NCBI GenBank assembly: GCA_026874595.1 | Contig: CM049310.1 | Location: forward strand, 39,685,558-39,749,557 | Direction of reading: 5' to 3' | Length of the DNA stretch: 64,000 bases | Source of the DNA: Sipunculus nudus | Taxonomy: Eukaryota; Annelida; Sipuncula; Golfingiida; Sipunculidae | Shown here: positions 10,347-63,640 of the stretch, in pieces | Layout: the number at the start of each line of letters is the position of its first letter | Numbering within the stretch: the stretch's first letter is position 1 | Notes under the pieces: generated by a model | The model's database searches: none | The model's input: only the letters and a program-made list of their open reading frames with translations | What the model was told of the DNA's origin: nothing | Translations under genes and position numbers: made by a program

Positions 10347-10350
<4 letters not shown>

Positions 10351-10727
10351 ACGAAGACAAATTGTTAAGGGGAAAAATCCTGGGCCAATCCGGGAGTCGA
10401 ACTATGGTCGGTGGCGCACAAGTCCGGCGTACCAACCGAATCGCTAGAAAAGCAAGCTTCACTAGCAGTTCAGTCCGCTTTTAATGGCACCCCCAAGAGT
10501 CACACTTTGGTGAGCTTATTCCCTGGGCCATAAAGTTAAACCGTCACGTTAGACTAGCCCCCATTTTGGGACGAAGGCAAATAAATGACGGGAAAATCCT
10601 GGGTCGAACCCAGGTCGGTGGCGTACAAGTCCGGCGAACCAACCGCTTCGCTAGAAAAGCGAGCTTCACTAGCGAGACAGTTCGGTCCGCTTTTATGGCA
10701 CCCCGTAACACAACAATTTGTCTTCGT

Positions 10728-10731
<4 letters not shown>
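10347..10731 (-). mobile_element. TRIM (miniature LTR element), decayed copy with an inverted tail
   Basis: Same family as the intact copy at 12740-13166. It begins TGTTACGAAGAC and carries two LTR-like stretches, each with the tRNA-like block (the B-box is degraded; GGGTCGAACC at 10601 in the second). An internal segment carries GAGTCACACTTTGGTGAGC. The primer-site region is decayed (ACTAGCCCCCATT at 10552-10564). The distal LTR ends CCCCGTAACA at 10710 but is followed by 21 extra bases (10711-10731) that are the reverse complement of the element's own first bases. The whole unit therefore has perfect inverted ends and is flanked on both sides by ATAT. Confidence 0.75.
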
Positions 10732-12735: not shown

Positions 12736-12990
12736 ATAATGTTACGAAGACATAGCTGAGGGGAAACATTGGGCCGATCCCGGATTCGAACCCATGTCGG
12801 TGGCGCACATGTCCGGTGTTCCTACCGCTTCGCTAGCAAAGCAAGCTTCACTAGAAAGACAGTTCGGTCCGCTTTTATGTCACCCCGTAACACGTCCCCT
12901 CTTAAGAGCGTTCTGCTATCAGAACAAAACTAATTATCCCTGGAGTCACACTTTGGTGAGCTTATTTCCTGGGCCACAAAGTTTACTGTC

Positions 12991-13008
12991 ATCCCGGACG
13001 AGCCCCCA
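12991..13008 (-). promoter_or_regulatory. tRNA-Pro primer-binding site of the TRIM
   Basis: Exact 18-base TGGGGGCTCGTCCGGGAT on the minus strand, two bases inside the 5' LTR, the normal distance for an LTR-retroelement primer site. Confidence 0.85.
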
Positions 13009-13055
13009 TTTGTTACGAAGACAAATTGCTGTGGGGAAAACATTGGGCCGATCCC

Positions 13056-13109
13056 GGATTCGAACCCATGTCGGTGGCGCACATGTCCTGCGTTCCAACC
13101 GCTTCGCTA
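13056..13109 (-). promoter_or_regulatory. tRNA-like Pol III promoter (A and B boxes) inside the TRIM LTR
   Basis: On the minus strand TAGCGAAGCGG (13109-13099) fits the A-box consensus TRGCNNAGYGG. GGTTCGAATCC (13066-13056) is a perfect B-box. They are 32 bases apart, as in tRNA genes. The other LTR has the same pair (A-box about 12827-12837, B-box 12785-12795). A full tRNA cloverleaf is not evident, so this is tRNA-like rather than a tRNA gene. Confidence 0.7.
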
Positions 13110-13979
13110 GGAAAGCAAGCTTCGCTAGCGAGTCAGTTCGGTCCGCTTTTATGTTACCCCGTAACAATAAATAAAAACTGTCAATAAACACTGAGTGGGC
13201 ACGGATGAGCGGCTTATTTTTCTCGTGTTTTTTTTTTTCAAACTGTGCTGGAATGCTTGTGCTACCGCTCTTTAATAGCCCACGGCTTGTCTACCGTAAT
13301 AAACCGTAGTAACACCGTAGTAAGATCTTAGCGGCACCGTGACCACCGCAAGTCCACCGTAAATCCACCGTGGCAGCACCGTAAGTACCGTAGCAACACC
13401 GTAGTGGCACCGTATAGAACCGCAGGTCAAACAGCTACACCGTGTGTCAAACCCTGCTGAACCGAAATGACACCGTGGGCACCGTAGTGTCACCTTATTG
13501 ACACCCTAAGGCCATCGGGACAAACCGTGAGTATACCGTGCAATACCGTACTGACAACGGGGAAGATGATGACTGTTGACGATCGTCGAGACCTCCACGG
13601 TGGATTTTACGAAATTTCGTCCCGGTTTTCCCGGTTTAAAAACCGGGACGAACCGGGGTACATAAAACACCGTAGTAACACCTATGGTCGGTGTGACTGG
13701 GCCCTTATTACCAACCAAGTTTCGGAGGTCACCGTACGGTCGCCGTAGATTATGTGAGTGCAAACAACGTGGGATGAAAAATCACACGGTAACCGTACGG
13801 TCTCGAAAACTCACGGCAAGCCGGGGGTTTGAAAAAATCGTACGGCGCCTGGTGTATATGTTAGCTAGGCATTACGAATACTTCTTACTTCGTATTCAAT
13901 GTAGGGAACAAACCCAGAATATATGTCACTACAGGGATTTTGTGACAGAAAAGTTTGGTTGGTCTTTTCATTGATCAGT

Positions 13980-15335: not shown

Positions 15336-15509
15336 CAATCAATTCAATATAGAAAGTATATTTTTGAAAAAAACTTCATAAACATTGTGCCATACACATA
15401 TACAGCGTTAGTCTCTTGTTGATGACAAATTTGTCGTATGAAAATATAGTTAAGATTATGTCTACCTTATTTAACCTTCATTTACTTTGAAATTTACATA
15501 AGTTTATAC

Positions 15510-16583
15510 CTTGAAAAGCGTGTCTGCATCCTCAACTAGCTGACATCGCTTCTGGTGCATGACCCTAAACTTCTCCAGATCGGCCGCGACCTGTCCATCG
15601 CGCATGATCGCCTGCGAGAACGTCATACACACGTGACGAAACTCCCGGTAAAGAATGTAGCAGACGACAGTAAAGAAACTCATCGTAAAGCCTGCAATCA
15701 TAGTGTTAAAGAACAACAAAGCTAAAACGAGGATTTTGGCGGCTACGTAACCTGGGGCTTGCGGAGATAAGGGGACCATGAATGTATCGTGCAGTCGCTG
15801 CATGTTTTCTGGCCCAAACATCCCGTAACACGTGATGCCGACATTGCATGTTACCAAGACAACTGTCAGTCCGATAAAACCTTTCATCAGTCTTTTTAAG
15901 GGTTCTTCATAATCAACAATACCGTCAATGAAACAGACTTTATCCAAAGTGATGAAGAATTCCTCCAGCCCTTTTTTCTTCCATAAGCATATAATGTACC
16001 CCAATAAAGCTCTTGCAAAGCACTCGTACCAGAATATGCAACCTTTGATTTTGAAGAAGAGAAGCGTTCCAAATGTGTCTCCTTCTGTGAAGGCAAGCAG
16101 AGAGCGGGCGAGGTTAAGGAACAATACCACAAGCAACACTGTACAATATATTCTCGAAGGCGTCCACTTTTTGGATCTTTCTTTAGATCGCACGAAAAAA
16201 GTGCCGCATGCCATCTGACAAAGAAAGAGTGGTTTGATAGCAGTGTAGAAATGAGTTTCAGTGATGTGTGTAAGTTCTATGGTATGCGCCATCGATGTTA
16301 GAGCCTTGCCTTTCAAAACCTGCCCCAAGGTGGAGTGCATATGCTGCAACGTTGCCCTGTTTTCGGTTGGGCGCATGCGCATTCGTGAAACGGAAGGCAT
16401 CGTGGTGCCGGGGATGTTTGGGGATGCCGTATCCGTTTCTTTGGTCTTGCCCCTTCGTTCTGAGGTCTGGTTATCTTGATCTTCCTTTGGGACGCATTTT
16501 TCTTCACAGTTTTCTTGTCTTTGTTTCTGTTCTATCTCCTCTTCCACATACAGCATTGTCGTTCTTTTTGAGAGTTGATGCAT
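15510..16583 (-). CDS. Gustatory-receptor-like 7TM protein, exon 1
   Basis: A single 358-codon exon from ATG (16583) to a donor after AAG (TTCAAG|GTATAA, last base 15510), phase 0 into the exon at 15050-14877. The first ~95 residues are hydrophilic (charged, Q/E/K-rich). Then come HFYTAIKPLFLCQMACGTF and four hydrophobic helices: about 144-165 (YCTVLLVVLFLNLARSLL), 177-203 (GCIFWYECFARALLGYII), 233-255 (GFIGLTVVLVTCNVGITC) and 282-315 (VLALLFFNTMIAGFTMSFF). The short loop ending WKKKGLEEFFITLDKVCF is characteristic of insect-type gustatory receptor and GRL proteins, plasma-membrane proteins with an intracellular N-terminus. In molluscs and other non-insects GRLs need not be taste receptors. 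Ligand and tissue cannot be inferred. No 5' UTR exon or promoter was identified. Confidence 0.75.
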
Positions 16584-35921: not shown

Positions 35922-36800
35922 CTAGAATATCAGCAGAAGCTGATAAAAGCCCTCAGCCAAAAGAACAGTGTTTATAGGTGGTAACAGTAACAAGTACAAA
36001 ATATTTGTTCTCTTATGGATGTATATCTGTATATGTCTCACTTATAAATTTAAACTGGACAGGTATGTACCATGTTTCCTAACAATCCACCATATGCTTT
36101 TAGAAGATATTCTGCTCACAAGGCCAAAGTTGAAAAATCCAAAAAAAATTCATTAAAATCAGAAATTGTAGGTAGTGCCCCCAAACCTCTGCAGCAGGTA
36201 CAGACCATCAGTTTTAATGATCATAGTAAGTTTTGTGAAAATCCACCAAATGATCTCTGAGAATTAAGCTTCTAAGGGTTTTTCTATATTCAGCTCTAAA
36301 ACGTAGAAAAATAGGTCAAGGTCAACCATCTTCGAAGTTGACTGAGATATTGTTGATATAAATCTTCACTAATGAAATAAAATTCCCATGGTGAATCCTT
36401 TTAGAGATATCCCGCTCACAAGGCCAAAGTTGAAAAATCCGATAAAAATTCATTAAAAATTAGAACTTGTAGGTGGCGCCACCAAACTTGTGCAGCAGAT
36501 AGAGACCATCAGTCCCAATGACCATAGTAAGTTTTGTGAAAATCCACCCAATGGTTCCTGAGACATAAACTTCTAAGTGTTTTTCTATAATCAGCTCTAA
36601 AATGTAGAAAAATAGGTTAAGGTCACCCATTTTCGAACTTTTCCGAGATTTTGTCGATATACATCTTCATCGAAGAAATAAAATTCCTACGGTGAATCCT
36701 TTTAGAGATATCCCGCTCCCAAGGTAAAAGTTAACGGACGCCGGACGGACGGACAGCTTGGGTGTTGACAATAGCCCATCAGCTCAGGGCTTAGGGGTAA
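35922..36800 (+). mobile_element. Hairpin-ended tandem-unit element C, apparently full length
   Basis: Starts with a perfect hairpin TATCAGC-agaa-GCTGATA (35926-35943). About 160 bp of unique sequence follows, then two units of 300 and 301 bp (GATAT...GCTCACAAGGCCAAAGTTG at 36107, 36407 and 36708). Next are a GGACGGACGGACAG tract (36733-36755), a weak terminal hairpin AGCCC...GGGCT (36773-36791) and an A run. One unit holds the palindrome GGTGGCGCCACC (36473). The 5' end recurs inverted at about 60100-60242. No coding capacity. Structure resembles molluscan Helentron-related repeat elements, but no hallmark terminus is proven. Confidence 0.6.
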
Positions 36801-40283: not shown

Positions 40284-41886
40284 AGCTCGGCTCACTGTAA
40301 GTCATCTGAGCTGTAGTGATCACTCTTTGTCCGTCGTCCGTCCGGTCGTCTGGCCGTCCGGCCGTCCGTCCGTTAACAGGGCACAAACTGTAACTGCTGG
40401 ACCTAGAATCTTGTAACTTGACATCCTGGGAGGTTCATAAAAAATCTCCTATCTCCTTGGAACCCTGAAATTAGGTCTCTGTTACCCATATTCTTCCAGC
40501 TACGGGGCTCCAAAGTACCCCCAAGAATAATGGAAAATTTGATACAAAGGCTCAATTATCTGAACAACTAATGCAGTGATCACCAAGATGTTTAGCATGG
40601 ATATTGATCATGGAGTGTTTCATCAGTTTCTGCAGTCTGGTGGCGCCAACTGTATTTTTTCGATTTTTACGAATTTTTTTCTCTATTTTTGAGACATCTT
40701 AAGATGTGGTCATCTGTTAACAGGGCACAAATCGTAACCACTGGACCTAGAATCTTCTCACTTGCCTTGCGGGGAGGCCCATGAAAAGTCTCTGTGGAAA
40801 CCTGAAATTAGGTCTCTGTTACCCATATCCTTTGAGCTATGGGGCTCCGAATTACCCCCCAAGAATAATGCAAAAAAAGCTCAAGTATCTGAATAACTAC
40901 TGCATTGGTCATCATGATTCTTTGCATGAATATTGATCATGGGATGTTCCATCATTTCCTGCAGACTGGTGGCGCCACCTGTATTTTTCCTATTTTCACG
41001 ATTTTTTTCTCTTTTTTTTCAGACCTGCAATGAAACTGTCATATTTAACAGGGCACAAATTGTAACCACTGGACCTGGAATCTTCAAACTTAATATACAG
41101 GGAGGGCCATAAAAAATCTCCTGGAAAACCTGAAATTAGGTCTTTGTTACCCATATCCTTCGAGCTATTGGGCTCTGAAGTACCCCCCAGAATAATGCAA
41201 AATTTGATACAAAAGCTCAAGTATCTGAATAACTACTACATTGATCATCATGATTCTTTGCATGAATATTGATCATGGGATGTTCCATCACTTTCTGCAG
41301 ACTGGTGGCGCCACCTGTATTTTTCCCAATTTTACGATTTTTTTCTATATATTTGAGACCTTCAAAGAAGCTGTCATCTGTTAACAGGGCACAAATCGTA
41401 ACCGCAGGACCTGGATTCTTCTAACTTGACATCAAGAGAGGTCCATGAAAAGTCTCTATGGAAACCTGAAATAAGGTCTCTGTTACCCATATCCTTCGAG
41501 CTATGGGGCTTGTAAGTACTCCTAAGAATAATTAAAAATGTGATACAAAAGCTGCAGTATCTGAATAACTAATGTACTAATGACCATGATTTTTTGCATT
41601 CATATTGATCATGGAGTGTTTCATCAGTTCCTGCAGACTGGATCGCGCCACCTATTTTTTTTTTAATTTGTACGCATTTTTTTCTCATTTTGAGACCTTC
41701 AAATAAAGCTTCATCTTGTAGCAGGGCACAAATCGTAACCACTTGACCTAGAATCTTCATACTTGACATCTAGGGAGCTCCATGAAAAGTCTTCATGGAA
41801 ATCCGAAATTAGGTCTCTGTTACCCATATCCTCTGAGCTATCGGGCTCATAAGTACCCACGAAATAATTAAAAATGTGATACAAAA
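40284..41886 (-). mobile_element. Hairpin-ended tandem-unit element B, inverted copy
   Basis: Read on the minus strand, about 4.5 units of about 335 bp end in a GGACGG-rich tract (40330-40376). The terminal hairpin AGCTCAGATGAC-ttaca-GTGAGCCGAGCT (40312-40284) and AAAAA follow. Units carry GGTGGCGCCACC (40968, 41303) and GGGTAACAGAGACC. Same family as 48066-52818 but in opposite orientation. Confidence 0.75.
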
Positions 41887-45639: not shown

Positions 45640-47000
45640 GAGGTCTCTATATTCTTCAATTAAGGAGTCAAAGAAGATTCTTCATGAACTATCTTGATTA
45701 TTATCAAATAACATATTAATTGCCTGTATGCCATACAACAGATAATGTTTTCCTATTCTACCTTTTTGATTATTGGTTTGTAATTTGTAATGCTTTTGTA
45801 TTAGGCCTACTTCTGTAGTGACATTTTGTATGTTGATCTTCGCTTTGTCGGAGGAAATAATGGTTAACAACAGTATCGTATATGCATGCATGCATGGTCG
45901 CTTCTGAAATTTATAACAGCAGAAACTGTAGTATTGTATAAGCCGAACCAACAGAGATGAAAATTTTCTGCCGTTTCAACGTAAAGGTTTAAAGAACAAG
46001 TTCCATCATGTTTTATATATAATATAACATGAGGACATGCAACAACCTATACATTTGTCAATCAACTCAAATCATGCACGCCTAGGAAATGCCTGCATTT
46101 TGGTTTTGAACTGTCGGGAATCATAACAAGTGTGTGTGTGTGTGTGTGTATCCTTTCCCATATTTACCCAAAAATCCGGATACATTAGCATTGTGTGGTT
46201 ATTGTAGTGCCATCTATCGGGAATAACGTGAACTACGCTAATACGGTTAATACTCTGGTAAAGTATAAATACACTTGTGTTGACTCAGGTTTGGACATAA
46301 ATTGCGAAGGAATATTCCGTATGCATGAAAATAATTCTTCACTCTAGACAGTCAGATAAGGTTTGCCCATATTAGCATGGTCCATAGTTTTGACAGGTAT
46401 GATTCGAAGGCTGCTTATGAGAAGCCTTTGGCATCTATTCTTTTAATATTGGGAACGGTGCCAAGTGTGTCTTAATGAGGTAATTCCCCATATTTGCCCA
46501 TAAATCATGAGATATTTGATATTACTCCGCGAAAATAATACGACAGCGTCATCTGTCAGAAACTATAAACTAAATAAGAACGGGTATAAAACTCTGGTAT
46601 ACTACATATAAGAACACATGAAACCTGAATTAAAATTGAATGACGTTAAAGAAGAGAGAGTGGGCGGGGGAAAGAGGGGGGGAGGGGATAGGGCGACTGC
46701 AACAGACAACAAGTGCCCCATGGGTCATGACGCTCAGCTGACTGGGAAGAGATTCGCAAAAGGAAATTTTATCATCAGAATGGTAGTATATACCCATTCA
46801 ACTGAAGCATCAAACAGATTAACCAACAGGCCAAGATTTAGTCTGTATTTATATATCTCAAAAATAGAGAAAAATGTGTAAACTTTTAAAACTAGAATAC
46901 GGGTAACCGACAAGTGACTACATGTATCTGCCAAAATCGGATGGTGAGGCATGGATTGAGTGGCAAGGGGAAATAGAGTGAGGTATGTTGCATATTAGCA
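45640..47000. other. No gene recognised
   Basis: AT-rich; a (TG)n run at 46130-46148 and a GGGGGAGGGG patch near 46666-46688. Open frames here lack any recognisable domain. Confidence 0.5.
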
Positions 47001-47026
47001 TGGATGTCTGCAGCCTAAATGTGTAT

Positions 47027-48062
47027 GTAGGTTGTGCCACCTACCACAAATCCAGAAAGCTGTCCAAGTTGTATACACCTGCAAAATTTTAGGCAGAAAA
47101 GTCAAACCACTACATGTATATGAGCGATTTTTGCCCATGGCAGACAAACAGACAAACACTGTGCAAAAATCTTTGCAGGTAACCCCTCCAGTTTTGTGTA
47201 TGATAAAGACCTATGTGAGATCTAAACACATGCACAATTTTGGCCCAATCGGTCAAATGGTTCCTGAGATATGAGCTTGGATGTGTCCAGCGTTAACTAG
47301 AATGTAGGTGGCGCCACCTGTCATAAAATCAAGAAAGCTGTCCACGATGTATAAACCTGCAAAATTTTAGGCAGTTATGTCGAACCACTACAGAGAAATG
47401 AGTAATTTTAGGCCACGGCAGACTAACAGACAGACGCTGTGCAAACATTGTTACAGGTGGCGCCACCATTTTTTGTGTATGTTACAGAGCTATCAAAGGG
47501 TTACATTTGTATAAATTTTATTTCCTGATCGGTCAAACGGTTCCCGAGATATAAGCTTGGATGTCATCAGCGTGAACGTGAACGTAGGTGGCGCCACCTG
47601 TCATAAAATCAAGAAAGCTATCCTGGATGTATACACATGACGAATTTCAGGTGAATTAGTCGATTCACTGCAGAGATATGAGTGATTTTAACCCAAGGCA
47701 GATGAACAGATGGACACTGTGCAAACATGGTTACAGGTGGCGCCACCATTTTTTGTGTATGTTATAAAGCAATCCAAGGGCTACATTTGTATCAATTTTA
47801 TTTCCTGATCGGTCAAACGGTTCCCGAGATATGAGGGTTTATGAGTGGAAACAGACCCACAAATGGACACTGGATAGAGAGGAAAGGTCAGAGGTCAATG
47901 CAAATTGGTTAGGCACCAGTTCACATGTGACCCGATAATAGGTGTAAGTTTGGGAAAAATCGGTCAATTAGTCTCCGAGGAGCTCTCTGGAAACGAACGC
48001 CGCGGGGGCGGAGGAACTCGGTCAAAAACATAGTATCCGCAAAACTTCGTTTTGGCGGATAC
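47027..48062 (+). mobile_element. Hairpin-ended tandem-unit element A
   Basis: Units start at about 47027, 47304 and 47584 (277-280 bp), each with two half-units. GTAGGTGGCGCCACCTGTCA begins the first half and ACAGGTGGCGCCACCATTTT the second. GGTTCC(T/C)GAGATAT recurs as a closing phrase. After a unique segment the element ends in a hairpin GTATCCGC-AAAAC-ttc-GTTTT-GGCGGATAC (48033-48062) and A5. It directly abuts element B. No coding capacity. Confidence 0.65.
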
Positions 48063-48065
48063 AAA

Positions 48066-51000
48066 AATACAGGTGGCTCCACCAGTCTGCAGAAACTAAT
48101 AAAAACACTTAATGGTCAATATCCATGCAAAAAATCATGGTGATCTCTGCATTAGTTGTTCAGATACTTCAGTTTTTGTATCAAATTGTCCATTATTCTG
48201 AGGGATACTTCGGAGTCCTATAGCTTGAAGGATATGGGTAACAGAGACCTAATTTCAAGTTTCCACAGGCACCTTTCATGGGCCTCCTTGCATGACAAGA
48301 ATGAAGATTCTAGGTCCAGTTGTTGCGATTTGTACCCTGTTGACAGATAACCACATCTTTAAAGGTCTCAAAAAAAAGAAAAAAAATTGTAAAAATTTGA
48401 AAAAAAAATAGAGGTGGCACACCCAGTCTGCAGAAACTGATGGAACAGCTCATGATCAATATGTATGCCTAAAATCATGACCATCAGTGTTGTAGTTATT
48501 GAAATACTGCAGTTTTTGTATCAAATTTTCCATTATTCTGGGGGGGGGGTATTTTGGACCCATACAGCTTAAAGAATATGGGTAACAGAGACCTAATTTC
48601 AAGTTTCCATGGAGACTTTTCATGGGTCTCCCTGTGTGTCAAGAATGAAGATGCTTGGTCCAGTTTTTATGATTTGTGCCCTGTTAACATATGTTCATAT
48701 CTTTAAAGGTCTCAAAAATACAGAAAAATTTCGTAAAAGAAAACGAACAAATACAGGTGGTGCCACCAGTCTGCAGAAACTTATGAAACACTCCATGATC
48801 AATATCCATGCAAACAATTATGGTTATCTCTGCATTAGTTGTTCAGATACTTTAGCTTTTGTATCAAATTTTCCATTATTCTGAGCTGTACTTTGGAGTG
48901 CCATAGCTCAAAGGATATGGGTAACAGAGACCAAATTTCAGGTTTCCATGGAGACTTATCATGGGTCTCCCTGTGTGTCAAGAACGAAGATTCTAGGTCC
49001 AGTCGTTACAATTTGTACCCTGTTGACAGATAACTACATCCTTAAAGGTCTCAAAAATGGAGAAAACAATTCGTGAACATTGAAAAATACAGGTGGCGCC
49101 ACCAGTCTGCACAAACTGATGAAACATCTCATGATCAATATGTATGTCGAAAATCATGACAATCAGTGATGTAGTTAATGAGATATTGAAGTTTTTGTAT
49201 GAAATTTTGACTATTCTGGGGGGTAATTTTGGGCCCCATAGCTCGAAGGATATGGGTAACAGAGACCTAATTCTGGTTTCCATGGAGACTTTTCAAAGGT
49301 CTCTCAGTGTGTCGAAAATGAAGATTCTAGGTCCAGTCGTTACGATTTGTGCCACGCTAACAGATGACAGCATCCTCAAAGGTCTCAAAAATAGAGGAAA
49401 AAATCGTAAAAAATCAAACAGTACAGGTGGCGCCACCAGTCTGCAGGAACTGATCGAACATCTCATGATCAATATGTATGCCAAAAATGAAGACCATCAG
49501 TGATGTAGTTATTGAGATATTGAAGTTTTTGTATGAAATATTTTACTATTCTGGGGGGTACTTTGGGGCCCCATAGCTCAAAGGATATGGGTAACAGAGA
49601 CCTAATTTCTGGTTTCCAAGGAGATTTTTCATGGACCTCTCAGTGTGTCAAGAATTAAGATTCTAAGTCCAGTCTTTATGATTTGTGCCTTGTTAACAGA
49701 TGTTCACATTTTTAAAGGTCTCAAAAATAGAGAAAAAAATTCGTAAAAAAATAAAAAAATACAGGTGGCGCCACCAGTCTGCAGGAAGTGATGTAACATC
49801 TCATGATCAATATGTATGCCAAAAATCATGACCATCAGTCAAGTAGTTAATGAGATATTGAAGTTTTTGTATGAAATTTTTGACTTTTCTGGGGGGTACT
49901 TTGGGGCCACATAGCTCGAAGGATATGGGTAACAGAGACCAAATTTCAGGTTTCCATGGAGACTTATCATGGGTCTCCCTGTGTGTCAAGAACGAAGATT
50001 CTAGGTCAAGTCGTTACAATTTGTACCCTGTTGACAGATAACTACATCCTTAAAGGTCTCAAAAATGGAGAAAACAATTCGTGAACATTGAAAAATACAG
50101 GTGGCGCCACCAGTCTGCACAAACTGATGGAACAGCTCATGATCAATATGTATGCCTAAAATCATGACCATCAGTGTTGTAGTTATTGAAATACTGCAGT
50201 TTTTGTATCAAATTTTCCATTATTCTGGGGGGGGGGGTATTTTGGACCCATACAGCTTAAAGAATATGGGTAACAGAGACCTAATTTCAAGTTTCCATGG
50301 AGACTTTTCATGGGTCTCCCTGTGTGTCAAGAATGAAGATGCTTGGTCCAGTTTTTATGATTTGTGCCCTGTTAACATATGTTCATATCTTTAAAGGTCT
50401 CAAAAATACAGAAAAATTTCGTAAAAGAAAACGAACAAATACAGGTGGTGCCACCAGTCTGCAGAAACTTATGAAACACTCCATGATCAATATCCATGCA
50501 AACAATTATGGTTATCTCTGCATTAGTTGTTCAGATACTTTAGCTTTTGTATCAAATTTTCCATTATTCTGAGCTGTACTTTGGAGTGCCATAGCTCAAA
50601 GGATATGGGTAACAGAGACCAAATTTCAGGTTTCCATGGAGACTTATCATGGGTCTCCCTGTGTGTCAAGAACGAAGATTCTAGGTCCAGTCGTTACAAT
50701 TTGTACCCTGTTGACAGATAACTACATCCTTAAAGGTCTCAAAAATGGAGAAAACAATTCGTGAACATTGAAAAATACAGGTGGCGCCACCAGTCTGCAC
50801 AAACTGATGAAACATCTCATGATCAATATGTATGTCGAAAATCATGACAATCAGTGATGTAGTTAATGAGATATTGAAGTTTTTGTATGAAATTTTGACT
50901 ATTCTGGGGGGTAATTTTGGGCCCCATAGCTCGAAGGATATGGGTAACAGAGACCTAATTCTGGTTTCCATGGAGACTTTTCAAAGGTCTCTCAGTGTGT

Positions 51001-52818
51001 CGAAAATGAAGATTCTAGGTCCAGTCGTTACGATTTGTGCCACGCTAACAGATGACAGCATCCTCAAAGGTCTCAAAAATAGAGGAAAAAATCGTAAAAA
51101 ATCAAACAGTACAGGTGGCGCCACCAGTCTGCAGGAACTGATCGAACATCTCATGATCAATATGTATGCCAAAAATGAAGACCATCAGTGATGTAGTTAT
51201 TGAGATATTGAAGTTTTTGTATGAAATATTTTACTATTCTGGGGGGTACTTTGGGGCCCCATAGCTCAAAGGATATGGGTAACAGAGACCTAATTTCTGG
51301 TTTCCAAGGAGATTTTTCATGGACCTCTCAGTGTGTCAAGAATTAAGATTCTAAGTCCAGTCTTTATGATTTGTGCCTTGTTAACAGATGTTCACATTTT
51401 TAAAGGTCTCAAAAATAGAGAAAAAAATTCGTAAAAAAATAAAAAAATACAGGTGGCGCCACCAGTCTGCAGGAAGTGATGTAACATCTCATGATCAATA
51501 TGTATGCCAAAAATCATGACCATCAGTCAAGTAGTTAATGAGATATTGAAGTTTTTGTATGAAATTTTTGACTTTTCTGGGGGGTACTTTGGGGCCACAT
51601 AGCTCGAAGGATATGGGTAACAGAGACCAAATTTCAGGTTTCCATGGAGACTTATCATGGGTCTCCCTGTGTGTCAAGAACGAAGATTCTAGGTCAAGTC
51701 GTTACAATTTGTACCCTGTTGACAGATAACTACATCCTTAAAGGTCTCAAAAATGGAGAAAACAATTCGTGAACATTGAAAAATACAGGTGGCGCCACCA
51801 GTCTGCACAAACTGATGAAACATCTCATGATCAATATGTATTTCAAAAATCATGACCATCAGTGATGTAGTTAATGAGATATTGAAGTTTTTGTATGAAA
51901 TTTTTGACTATTCTGGGGGGTAATTTTGGGCCCCATAGCTCGAAGGATATGGGTAACAGAGACCTAATTTCTGGTTTCCATGGAGACTTTTCATAGGTCT
52001 CTCAGTGTGTCGAAAATGAAGATTCTAGGTCCAGTCGTTACAATTTGTGCCACGCTAACAGATGACAGCATCCTCAAAGGTCTCAAAAATAGAGGAAAAA
52101 GATTCGTAAAAAATCAAACAGTACAGGTGGCGCCACCAGTCTGCAGGAACTGATCGAACATCTCATGATCAATATGTATGCCAAAAATGAAGACCATCAG
52201 TGATGTAGTTATTGAGATATTGAAGTTTTTGTATGAAATTTTTTACTATTCTGGGGGGTACTTTGGGGCCCCATAGCTCAAAGGATATGGGTAACAGAGA
52301 CCTAATTTCTGGTTTCCAAGGAGATTTTTCATGGACCTCTCAGTGTTTCAAGAATTAAGATTCTAAGTCCAGTCTTTATGATTTGTGCCTTGTTAACAGA
52401 TGTTCACATTTTTAAAGGTCTCAAAAATAGAGAAAAAGATTCGTAAAAAATCGAAAAATACAGGTGGCGCCACCAGTCTGCAGGAAGTGATGTAACATCT
52501 CATGATCAATATGTATGCCAAAAATCATGACCATCAGTCAAGTAGTTAATGAGATATTGAAGTTTTTGTATGAAATTTTTGACTTTTCTGGGGGGTACTT
52601 TGGGGCCACATAGCTCGAAGGATATGGGTAACAGAGACCTAATTTCTGGTTTCCAAGGAGATTTTTTATGGACCTCTCAGAATCCCAAGTTACAAGGTTC
52701 TAGGTCCAGCGGTTACGATTTGTGCCTGGTTAACGGACGGACAGACGGACAGACGGACAGACGGACGACGGACAAAGAGTGATCGCTATAGCTCAGATGA
52801 CTTTCAGTCAGCTGAGCT
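48066..52818 (+). mobile_element. Hairpin-ended tandem-unit element B, 14-unit copy
   Basis: About 14 head-to-tail units of about 336 bp, starting near 48070, 48411, 48756, 49090, 49427, 49763, 50099, 50443, 50778, 51115, 51450, 51786, 52127 and 52462. Each reads ACAGGTGGCGCCACCAGTCTGC, then TGATCAATATGTATG, a GGGGGGTA run, AGGATATGGGTAACAGAGAC, and TTGTGCC...TTAACAGATG. The array ends in a GGACGGACAGACGG tract (52733-52773), the hairpin AGCTCAGATGAC-tttca-GTCAGCTGAGCT (52790-52818) and AAAAA. Frames stay open for up to 119 codons by chance of the unit sequence; no protein family is visible and phase is not kept by the 336-bp period plus indels. Confidence 0.8.
48441..51814 (+). repeat. 1.69-kb internal direct duplication within array B
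   Basis: 48441-50127 and 50128-51814 (five units each) appear identical by eye except for one base in a poly-G run (10 versus 11 G). Neighbouring units outside this block differ at many sites. Very recent amplification, gene conversion or an assembly artefact. Confidence 0.85.
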
Positions 52819-63159: not shown

Positions 63160-63640
63160 TTCGTTCACAAGACAAGTGTCCCCACCTACATTGACTTTTG
63201 CACAGTGTATGCGCCTGCTTATTTCTACAGAGAAATTTGATACATCAGCCTAAAATTGGGCATATTTATACATATCAGGAAGCTTTATCGTGTACAAGAC
63301 TGGTGGCGCCACCTACAATAATTTTTGCACAATGTATGTCCCTGCTTATTTCGCAGGAGGGGTTTGACATATCAGTCTGACGTTGGGCATACGTTTATAT
63401 CTCTTCATTGTATACAAGACTGGTAGTGTCAGCTACAGTCATTTTTGTGTTGTGTGCACCCATGCCAGAATTTCAGCAGTGATGTTTGTGTAATTGTTTC
63501 TTGTTCAAAATATTTAGTACTTGCATTGTTCAAATACATGTTACACATGTTCTTGAAAAGTAATGGTCCAGCATTGAAGCATTATATCTGGTGTAATCCC
63601 ATTGCATAGGTTCGCATTAGGCCTGTAGGCCTTGTTTTTC
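63160..63640 (+). mobile_element. Hairpin-ended tandem-unit element D
   Basis: Two and a half units of 120-122 bp starting ACAAG at 63172, 63294 and 63414; the second reads CTGGTGGCGCCACCTACA. The end is ATTAGGCC-tgta-GGCCTTG (hairpin 63619-63632) followed by a T run. A second copy of the end is at 59270-59430. Confidence 0.55.

Follow-up and report, generated by a model that had tools for sequence, protein, structure and literature searches.

A probable Helenus-type miniature LTR retrotransposon in Sipunculus nudus, with tRNA-like promoter boxes and a primer site in two forms

We propose that a 427-bp unit in the genome of Sipunculus nudus is very probably a TRIM of the Helenus type, that is, an LTR retrotransposon that has no genes of its own and relies on Ty3/Gypsy proteins for copying and insertion. 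The unit lies in the window (the whole 64-kb stretch of DNA that was analysed) and reads on the minus strand, from 13166 to 12740, as a 156-bp LTR, a 118-bp interior and a 153-bp LTR. The flanks of its genome copies show that both LTRs and the interior enter a target together, leaving 4-bp duplications, with ATAT as the preferred target. Comparison with tRNA-Pro-like ends in the same genome shows tRNA-Pro sequence, in a fraction of the copies, at those positions of the primer-binding site (PBS) that reverse transcriptase copies from the primer.

Anatomy of the element and its place among known TRIMs

The first-pass annotation had described a miniature LTR element with LTRs of 153 and 156 bp, TGTTACG...CGTAACA ends, a 118-bp interior, a tRNA-Pro primer site and a purine tract, and all of these lie where it had placed them (Table 1); they read on the minus strand, whereas that annotation named no strand. 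The A box and B box that it had reported for each LTR are also present in both, 32 bases apart in each. The ATAA duplication that flanks the element was absent from that annotation and is added here. The 5' and 3' LTRs are 91% identical, and no ORF of at least 150 amino acids was found in the element. Its PBS starts two bases after the 5' LTR; in most of the 27 copies that we read, three bases (AAA) separate the two. Among those copies, 24 of 27 have a purine run of at least 8 at the end of the interior, and full length is 430-433 bp in 24 of the 26 that have two LTRs.

Strict pairs of A and B boxes occur twice in the window, both times within this element. Simulation of 60 windows with matching trinucleotide composition gave no such pair and a single B box in total. 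As the simulated windows lack the pair and the unit is repeated genome-wide, the element is no chance arrangement.

Table 1. Features of the window element and of the second family copy, in window positions
Feature	Position	Strand	Basis or remark
Target site duplication ATAA, copy 1	12736..12739	.	flank of unit
3' LTR, 153 bp	12740..12892	-	sequence reading
B box GGTTCGAATCC of 3' LTR	12782..12792	-	motif
A box TAGCGAAGCGG of 3' LTR	12825..12835	-	motif
TATA-like CATAAAAG of 3' LTR	12872..12879	-	motif
Polypurine tract core AAGAGGGG, ahead of 3' LTR	12896..12903	-	purine run
Non-coding interior, 118 bp	12893..13010	-	no ORF of at least 150 aa
PBS TGGGGGCTCGTCCGGGAT, exact complement of tRNA-Pro 3' end, 18 nt	12991..13008	-	
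5' LTR, 156 bp	13011..13166	-	sequence reading
T4 run 3' of B box in 5' LTR, possible Pol III terminator	13037..13040	-	
B box GGTTCGAATCC of 5' LTR	13056..13066	-	motif
A box TAGCGAAGCGG of 5' LTR	13099..13109	-	motif
TATA-like CATAAAAG of 5' LTR	13146..13153	-	motif
Target site duplication ATAA, copy 2	13167..13170	.	flank of unit
Second family copy, rearranged, within (TA)n repeat	10347..10710	-	70% similar overall to the 427-bp element
21-bp inverted copy of LTR 3' end, attached outside the second copy's 5' LTR	10711..10731	+	

TRIMs with tRNA-like LTRs ("TRIMp3") have been described as Helenus from fungi, animals and one plant (Kojima 2024, PMC10886601). According to the sections of that paper drawn on here, Helenus is found in six animal phyla, with 4-bp duplications and Gypsy-like primer sites; animal members have two LTRs, a total length of about 311-1263 bp and no coding capacity; and tRNA-Pro is among the primers listed for bivalve Helenus. 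The window element is likewise short and gene-less, with A and B boxes in both LTRs, a tRNA PBS, a purine tract and 4-bp duplications, and it shares with animal Helenus a Gypsy-like partner for the PBS and the formation of tandem arrays (which one published Helenus family has). By its anatomy, the window element is a member of this published kind. The first-pass idea of a tRNA-type counterpart of Cassandra stood as far as the tRNA-like boxes in each LTR are concerned, but the kind is not new.

Two features set our element apart from what those sections say of Helenus. The first is the T4 run together with the TATA-like box, which are not discussed for Helenus there (the sole mention of "terminator" concerns Cassandra, and "tata" is absent). 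The second is the occurrence of two PBS forms, which the part of its PBS section drawn on here does not mention. A narrow literature search for a two-form PBS returned a single, unrelated paper, which does not show that such a PBS is unpublished. A separate search for later literature under the name Helenus returned PMC10886601 itself and a 2026 meeting report. Use of Pol III by TRIMs is presented in PMC10886601, in the same sections, as validated for Cassandra only and as a prediction for Helenus.

Our element resembles Cassandra in its tandem LTR arrays and in having a Pol III-type promoter (predicted here) in the LTR; Cassandra is a plant element with a 5S-derived promoter, whereas here the boxes are of the tRNA type and Rfam gives no 5S match. 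The biv-TRIM of bivalves (PMC6934838) is another animal TRIM with tandem forms, and it has solo forms too. However, no clear PBS is reported in the part of that paper drawn on here, and the conserved inner segment of biv-TRIM is not seen in our element by eye. Finally, tRNA-derived SINEs also have A and B boxes, but SINEs are moved by LINE machinery, whereas our element has LTRs, a PBS, a purine tract and duplications of a fixed 4 bp.

The neighbourhood of the element contains a few other features. A palindrome, GGTGGCGCCACC, has 18 exact copies in the window and is common to tandem repeats of differing periods (280-338 bp); the repeats that bear it lie at 36097-36732, 40372-41886, 46992-47832 and 48059-52734, and also at 63302. 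An open frame of 359 amino acids at 15504-16583 looks by eye like a membrane protein with several passes, perhaps a chemoreceptor; it had no Pfam match.

Integration as one unit

The assembly that we searched has 1.43 Gb in 153 contigs. With the window element as the query there were 4307 first-look candidates, and scoring 40 of them gave at least 47 matches; the second copy gave 3103 candidates, and 40 scored ones gave at least 64 matches. An exact pattern for the junction of LTR and PBS was found at 577 or more places in the genome, and its reversed control at none. The copy number is several hundred or more, as a lower bound. When viral contigs were scanned with two patterns from the element, neither had a match. 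A search for COX1 led to bacterial-type cytochrome oxidase genes on side contigs C60-C89 and C123 (two were read); for one of these, the nearest named relatives among the best 80 matches are about 58% identical and come from bacteria of several phyla. The assembly therefore probably includes associated bacteria. The molluscan haemocyanin domain had no match in the assembly and none in the control genomes either, so nothing follows from its absence.

The first set had 30 loci. L003, L020 and L026 were dropped for lack of usable ends, and 20 of the remaining 27 have an exact 4-bp duplication around the pair of LTRs. Shuffled pairing of the ends gave a mean of 4.0 and a maximum of 10 (2000 shuffles). 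There were no 5-bp duplications around the pair at any of the 27 loci, and as for the single repeats, a duplication surrounds the 5' LTR alone at one locus and the 3' LTR alone at none. In an extended set of 64 loci, both ends are intact at 54, and at 38 of these the complete element is bracketed by an exact 4-bp duplication; shuffled pairing gave a mean of 5.5 and a maximum of 13 (5000 shuffles). This set leaves out L133, L134, L021 and L123, which are duplicates or a damaged copy, and the strand was picked by score; L151 and L155 look alike too and are counted in it. The duplicated target is ATAT in 13 of the 38. Since the duplications lie around the whole unit, they indicate insertion as one piece, with a preference for ATAT.

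The first-pass annotation had looked to genome copies with duplications of 4-6 bp, and those found are of 4 bp. It had also named duplications around single repeats, and never around the pair, as the sign that the repeats are two independent SINEs that happen to lie paired; the counts above run the opposite way. Each repeat alone does contain both an A and a B box, as a SINE might, but we consider paired SINEs very improbable. Besides the duplications, the copies that we read have, time and again, an interior with its PBS and purine tract separating the repeats. Furthermore, arrays of three to six repeats each have one duplication around the whole: among ten arrays with both ends intact, it is an exact 4-bp duplication in six, off by one base in three, and off by more in one.

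A DNA transposon of the MITE type, with TGTTACG...CGTAACA as its inverted ends, is hardly credible either. The 7-bp inverted ends and the TA-rich targets would fit such a transposon, and so would the second copy in the window, in which 10711-10731 and 10347-10367 form inverted ends of about 20-21 bp inside a TA repeat. However, a MITE would not account for long direct repeats, a tRNA primer site, a purine tract and a PBS that carries tRNA sequence.

Not all of the loci are independent insertions. The window element (L001) and L002 share about 1.6 kb of homology, at 90%, that extends into the flanks, so these two are not independent, and likewise for L131 and L132. An LTR's own partner is its closest match in only 10 of 27 elements, which counts against the proposed reading, although the mean LTR identity is 0.918 within elements and 0.895 between them.

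Promoter-like parts of the LTR

Among the 56 LTRs of the first set, the A box is intact in 46, a strict B box is present in 30, and 24 have both; in all 24, the spacing between the boxes is 32. The TATA-like CATAAAAG is kept in 42 of the 56. A run of four or more T, 3' of the B box and starting at LTR positions 120-134, is found in 51 of the 56 LTRs and in 22 of 23 LTRs of a second set (from the second copy's query), and in 25 of 27 if only 5' LTRs are considered. The 3' LTR of the window element has only T3 at this place. In 25 of 56 and 7 of 23 LTRs, another run of at least four T immediately precedes the A box, beginning at LTR positions 50-56. The interior has such a run in 4 of 27 copies, including the window element.

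The order of these parts (TATA-like box, start near LTR position 45, A box, B box, T4) is that of a tRNA-type gene, and as read from the motifs the transcribed unit would be about 85 nt long. Through the A and B boxes, TFIIIC and Pol III would be recruited, and RNA synthesis would begin within the LTR, some 13 nt upstream of the A box. The T4 of the 5' LTR lies between this putative start and the rest of the element, so a full-length RNA needs either read-through or another polymerase. The T4 run thus argues against a simple Pol III origin of the full-length RNA. That only 24 of the 56 LTRs retain both strict boxes also counts against the proposed reading. Full-length RNA might arise if Pol III reads through the T4 of the 5' LTR and terminates within the 3' LTR; alternatively, Pol II may make it from the TATA-like box, and the product of Pol III would be the RNA of about 85 nt. 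Insertion would then be the work of a Gypsy integrase with specificity for TGTWAC...GTAACA ends.

The element could also be an ordinary TRIM that is driven by Pol II, in which the tRNA-like stretch is the relic of a SINE that once inserted into the LTR, without any promoter function. We regard this as possible but rather doubtful. The TATA-like box fits it, and the T4 run would cut a Pol III RNA short. Models of tRNAs do not recognise the stretch either: neither the Rfam covariance models (20 loci) nor ARAGORN (33 loci) called a tRNA in the element or its relatives. For the window element, Rfam had no match at E up to 10, hence no 5S. The folding of the tRNA-like segment is not unusual (z = -0.99; 34 of 200 shuffles fold at least as well). 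With no model match and ordinary folding, the label "tRNA-derived" depends on both boxes and on the distance between them.

Against the relic reading, the spacing is fixed at 32 wherever both strict boxes remain, and the A box and the core of the B box are the same in both query sets while their flanks differ. When we compared the majority bases of the 56 first-set and 23 second-set LTRs, 11 of 156 positions differed. The ends, the TATA-like box, the A box and the T4 contain no such differences; the B box has one, at its free position; and 8 of the 11 are in the stretches that flank the T4 on either side. With only 11 sites, and none at all in LTR positions 1-72, the comparison no more than hints at selection on the boxes.

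The primer site, a candidate helper and tandem arrays

At positions 13-18, the PBS has either the sequence CGGGAT (form P) or a YAACGT-like one (form N), and the bases before and after are mostly shared. In the window copy, the 18-nt PBS is the complement of the genome's tRNA-Pro-like 3' ends plus CCA. Such ends are found at 127 places, versus 6 in the control. Among the 100 of the 127 that were listed, 39 match exactly the 15 bases that are copied in P (hand count), most of the others differ from P by a base or two, and none has the N form. By hand count, 38 of these 100 ends are clustered in about 218 kb at C5:41589676-41807381, and they differ at position 18. The dispersed GTTCGAATCCCGG form of the tRNA-Pro-like end may be a SINE or pseudogene family.

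Whether a copy is P or N is not linked to the rest of the element. When a sample of 18 P and 17 N copies was permuted 3000 times, 2417 permutations came up to the observed statistic, and the nearest neighbour is of the same class for 19 of 35. A smaller run of P/N against relatedness gave 1274 of 2000 permutations and 13 of 27 neighbours, with L002, whose site is damaged, scored as N. The difference between P and N ends within PBS position 18. Plus-strand strong-stop DNA copies 18 nt of the primer, and the pattern in the PBS looks as if the tRNA had served as the template for rewriting it.

The near-equal shares of P and N in that sample are rejected as an estimate, as they are biased by the query. 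A less biased count comes from the first 100 of the 577 junctions, with 25 P and 75 N. If we subtract eight P-like junctions of a local cluster on C2, then 17 of 92 are P (two N-form junctions of this cluster are kept in the 92). All 15 single elements from the second copy's query are N, although this query is N itself. A P minority, together with 15 of 15 N in the second set, argues against a simple fifty-fifty rule and counts against the proposed reading.

The first-pass annotation had suggested looking for an autonomous Gypsy/BEL partner. We did find Gypsy elements with the same PBS, one of them with similar ends, but it is only a candidate. The first two patterns for a helper gave three matches, all copies of the miniature element itself, and no matches, respectively. 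A third pattern that was not tied to the LTR ends gave 54 places with the same PBS sequence behind other bases. At least one of the 54, C13:10513704, was rejected: it is not a primer site and coincides with a tRNA-Pro-like 3' end. Eight of the 54 were read in detail. L164 is a relative of the miniature element, and the other seven match it over only 18 to 42 bases, at the PBS. L161 has reverse transcriptase and RNase H domains; L162 has a retroviral-type protease, and gag matches below the curated cut-off; L163 has SCAN and zinc knuckles.

L169-L171 are one element, with reverse transcriptase, RNase H and integrase domains in an open frame of 1337 amino acids; this order, with integrase after RNase H, is that of Gypsy. 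Its LTRs have TGTAACGG...GTAACA ends and are about 1.47 kb long, and the pieces of them that were compared are 99.6-100% identical. The same 18-nt PBS follows after a gap of 3 nt, and the target duplication is CATA. A MYND zinc finger is seen upstream of the reverse transcriptase in this pol frame (L169:2179-4179). What L169-L171 and the miniature element have in common are similar ends, the gap, the PBS and the length of the duplication. A comparison of first stretches between candidate helper and miniature element showed nothing longer than 27 bases (L166). So L169-L171 is a candidate for the helper, and no more.

Three to six LTRs, in the form LTR-(interior-LTR)n, are present at 13 of the 64 loci. 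In these arrays, the first PBS is P in 4 cases and N in 7, and the inner ones are P in 0 and N in 21 (Fisher p = 0.009, which is generous because inner sites within one array are related). The script left four sites unscored, and two of them were read by eye: the first site of L154 is P and the second site of L041 is N.

Both routes to an array, during reverse transcription and after insertion, have been proposed for Cassandra in the part of Kalendar 2020 (PMC7215508) drawn on here. That all of the arrays here arose after insertion, by unequal recombination between LTRs, has in our view a little short of an even chance. L131 has three LTRs, and L132-L134, which are copies of the same locus, have two; the shared flanks are 97.8-99.9% identical among L132-L134 and about 93.7-98.7% identical between L131 and L132. 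(These four loci, at C17:38068065-38109606, are within a larger duplicated unit, and three of them are about 8.9 kb apart.) In L039, the inner units are near-identical and the outer LTRs have diverged. These cases imply that the repeat number also changes in place. However, unequal recombination should have duplicated the tRNA-like PBS into inner places too, and it is found at none of 21 inner sites and at 4 of 11 first sites.

We tentatively suggest, as something that could well be wrong, that the PBS records each reverse transcription, with positions 13-18 overwritten by tRNA-Pro sequence in some of the new copies. If so, arrays with P at the first site only would each be one product of reverse transcription, from a multi-unit RNA or a strand-transfer concatemer, and not the result of growth after insertion. 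The RNA or product of an array would then cross several LTRs that bear T4, which would point to leaky Pol III, or else to Pol II, as the source of the mobile RNA.

With its hundreds of copies, its candidate Gypsy partner and the two distinguishable forms of the PBS, this genome allows two questions to be addressed by counting: whether arrays of such elements form during or after reverse transcription, and whether or not the T4 run shapes the transcript.
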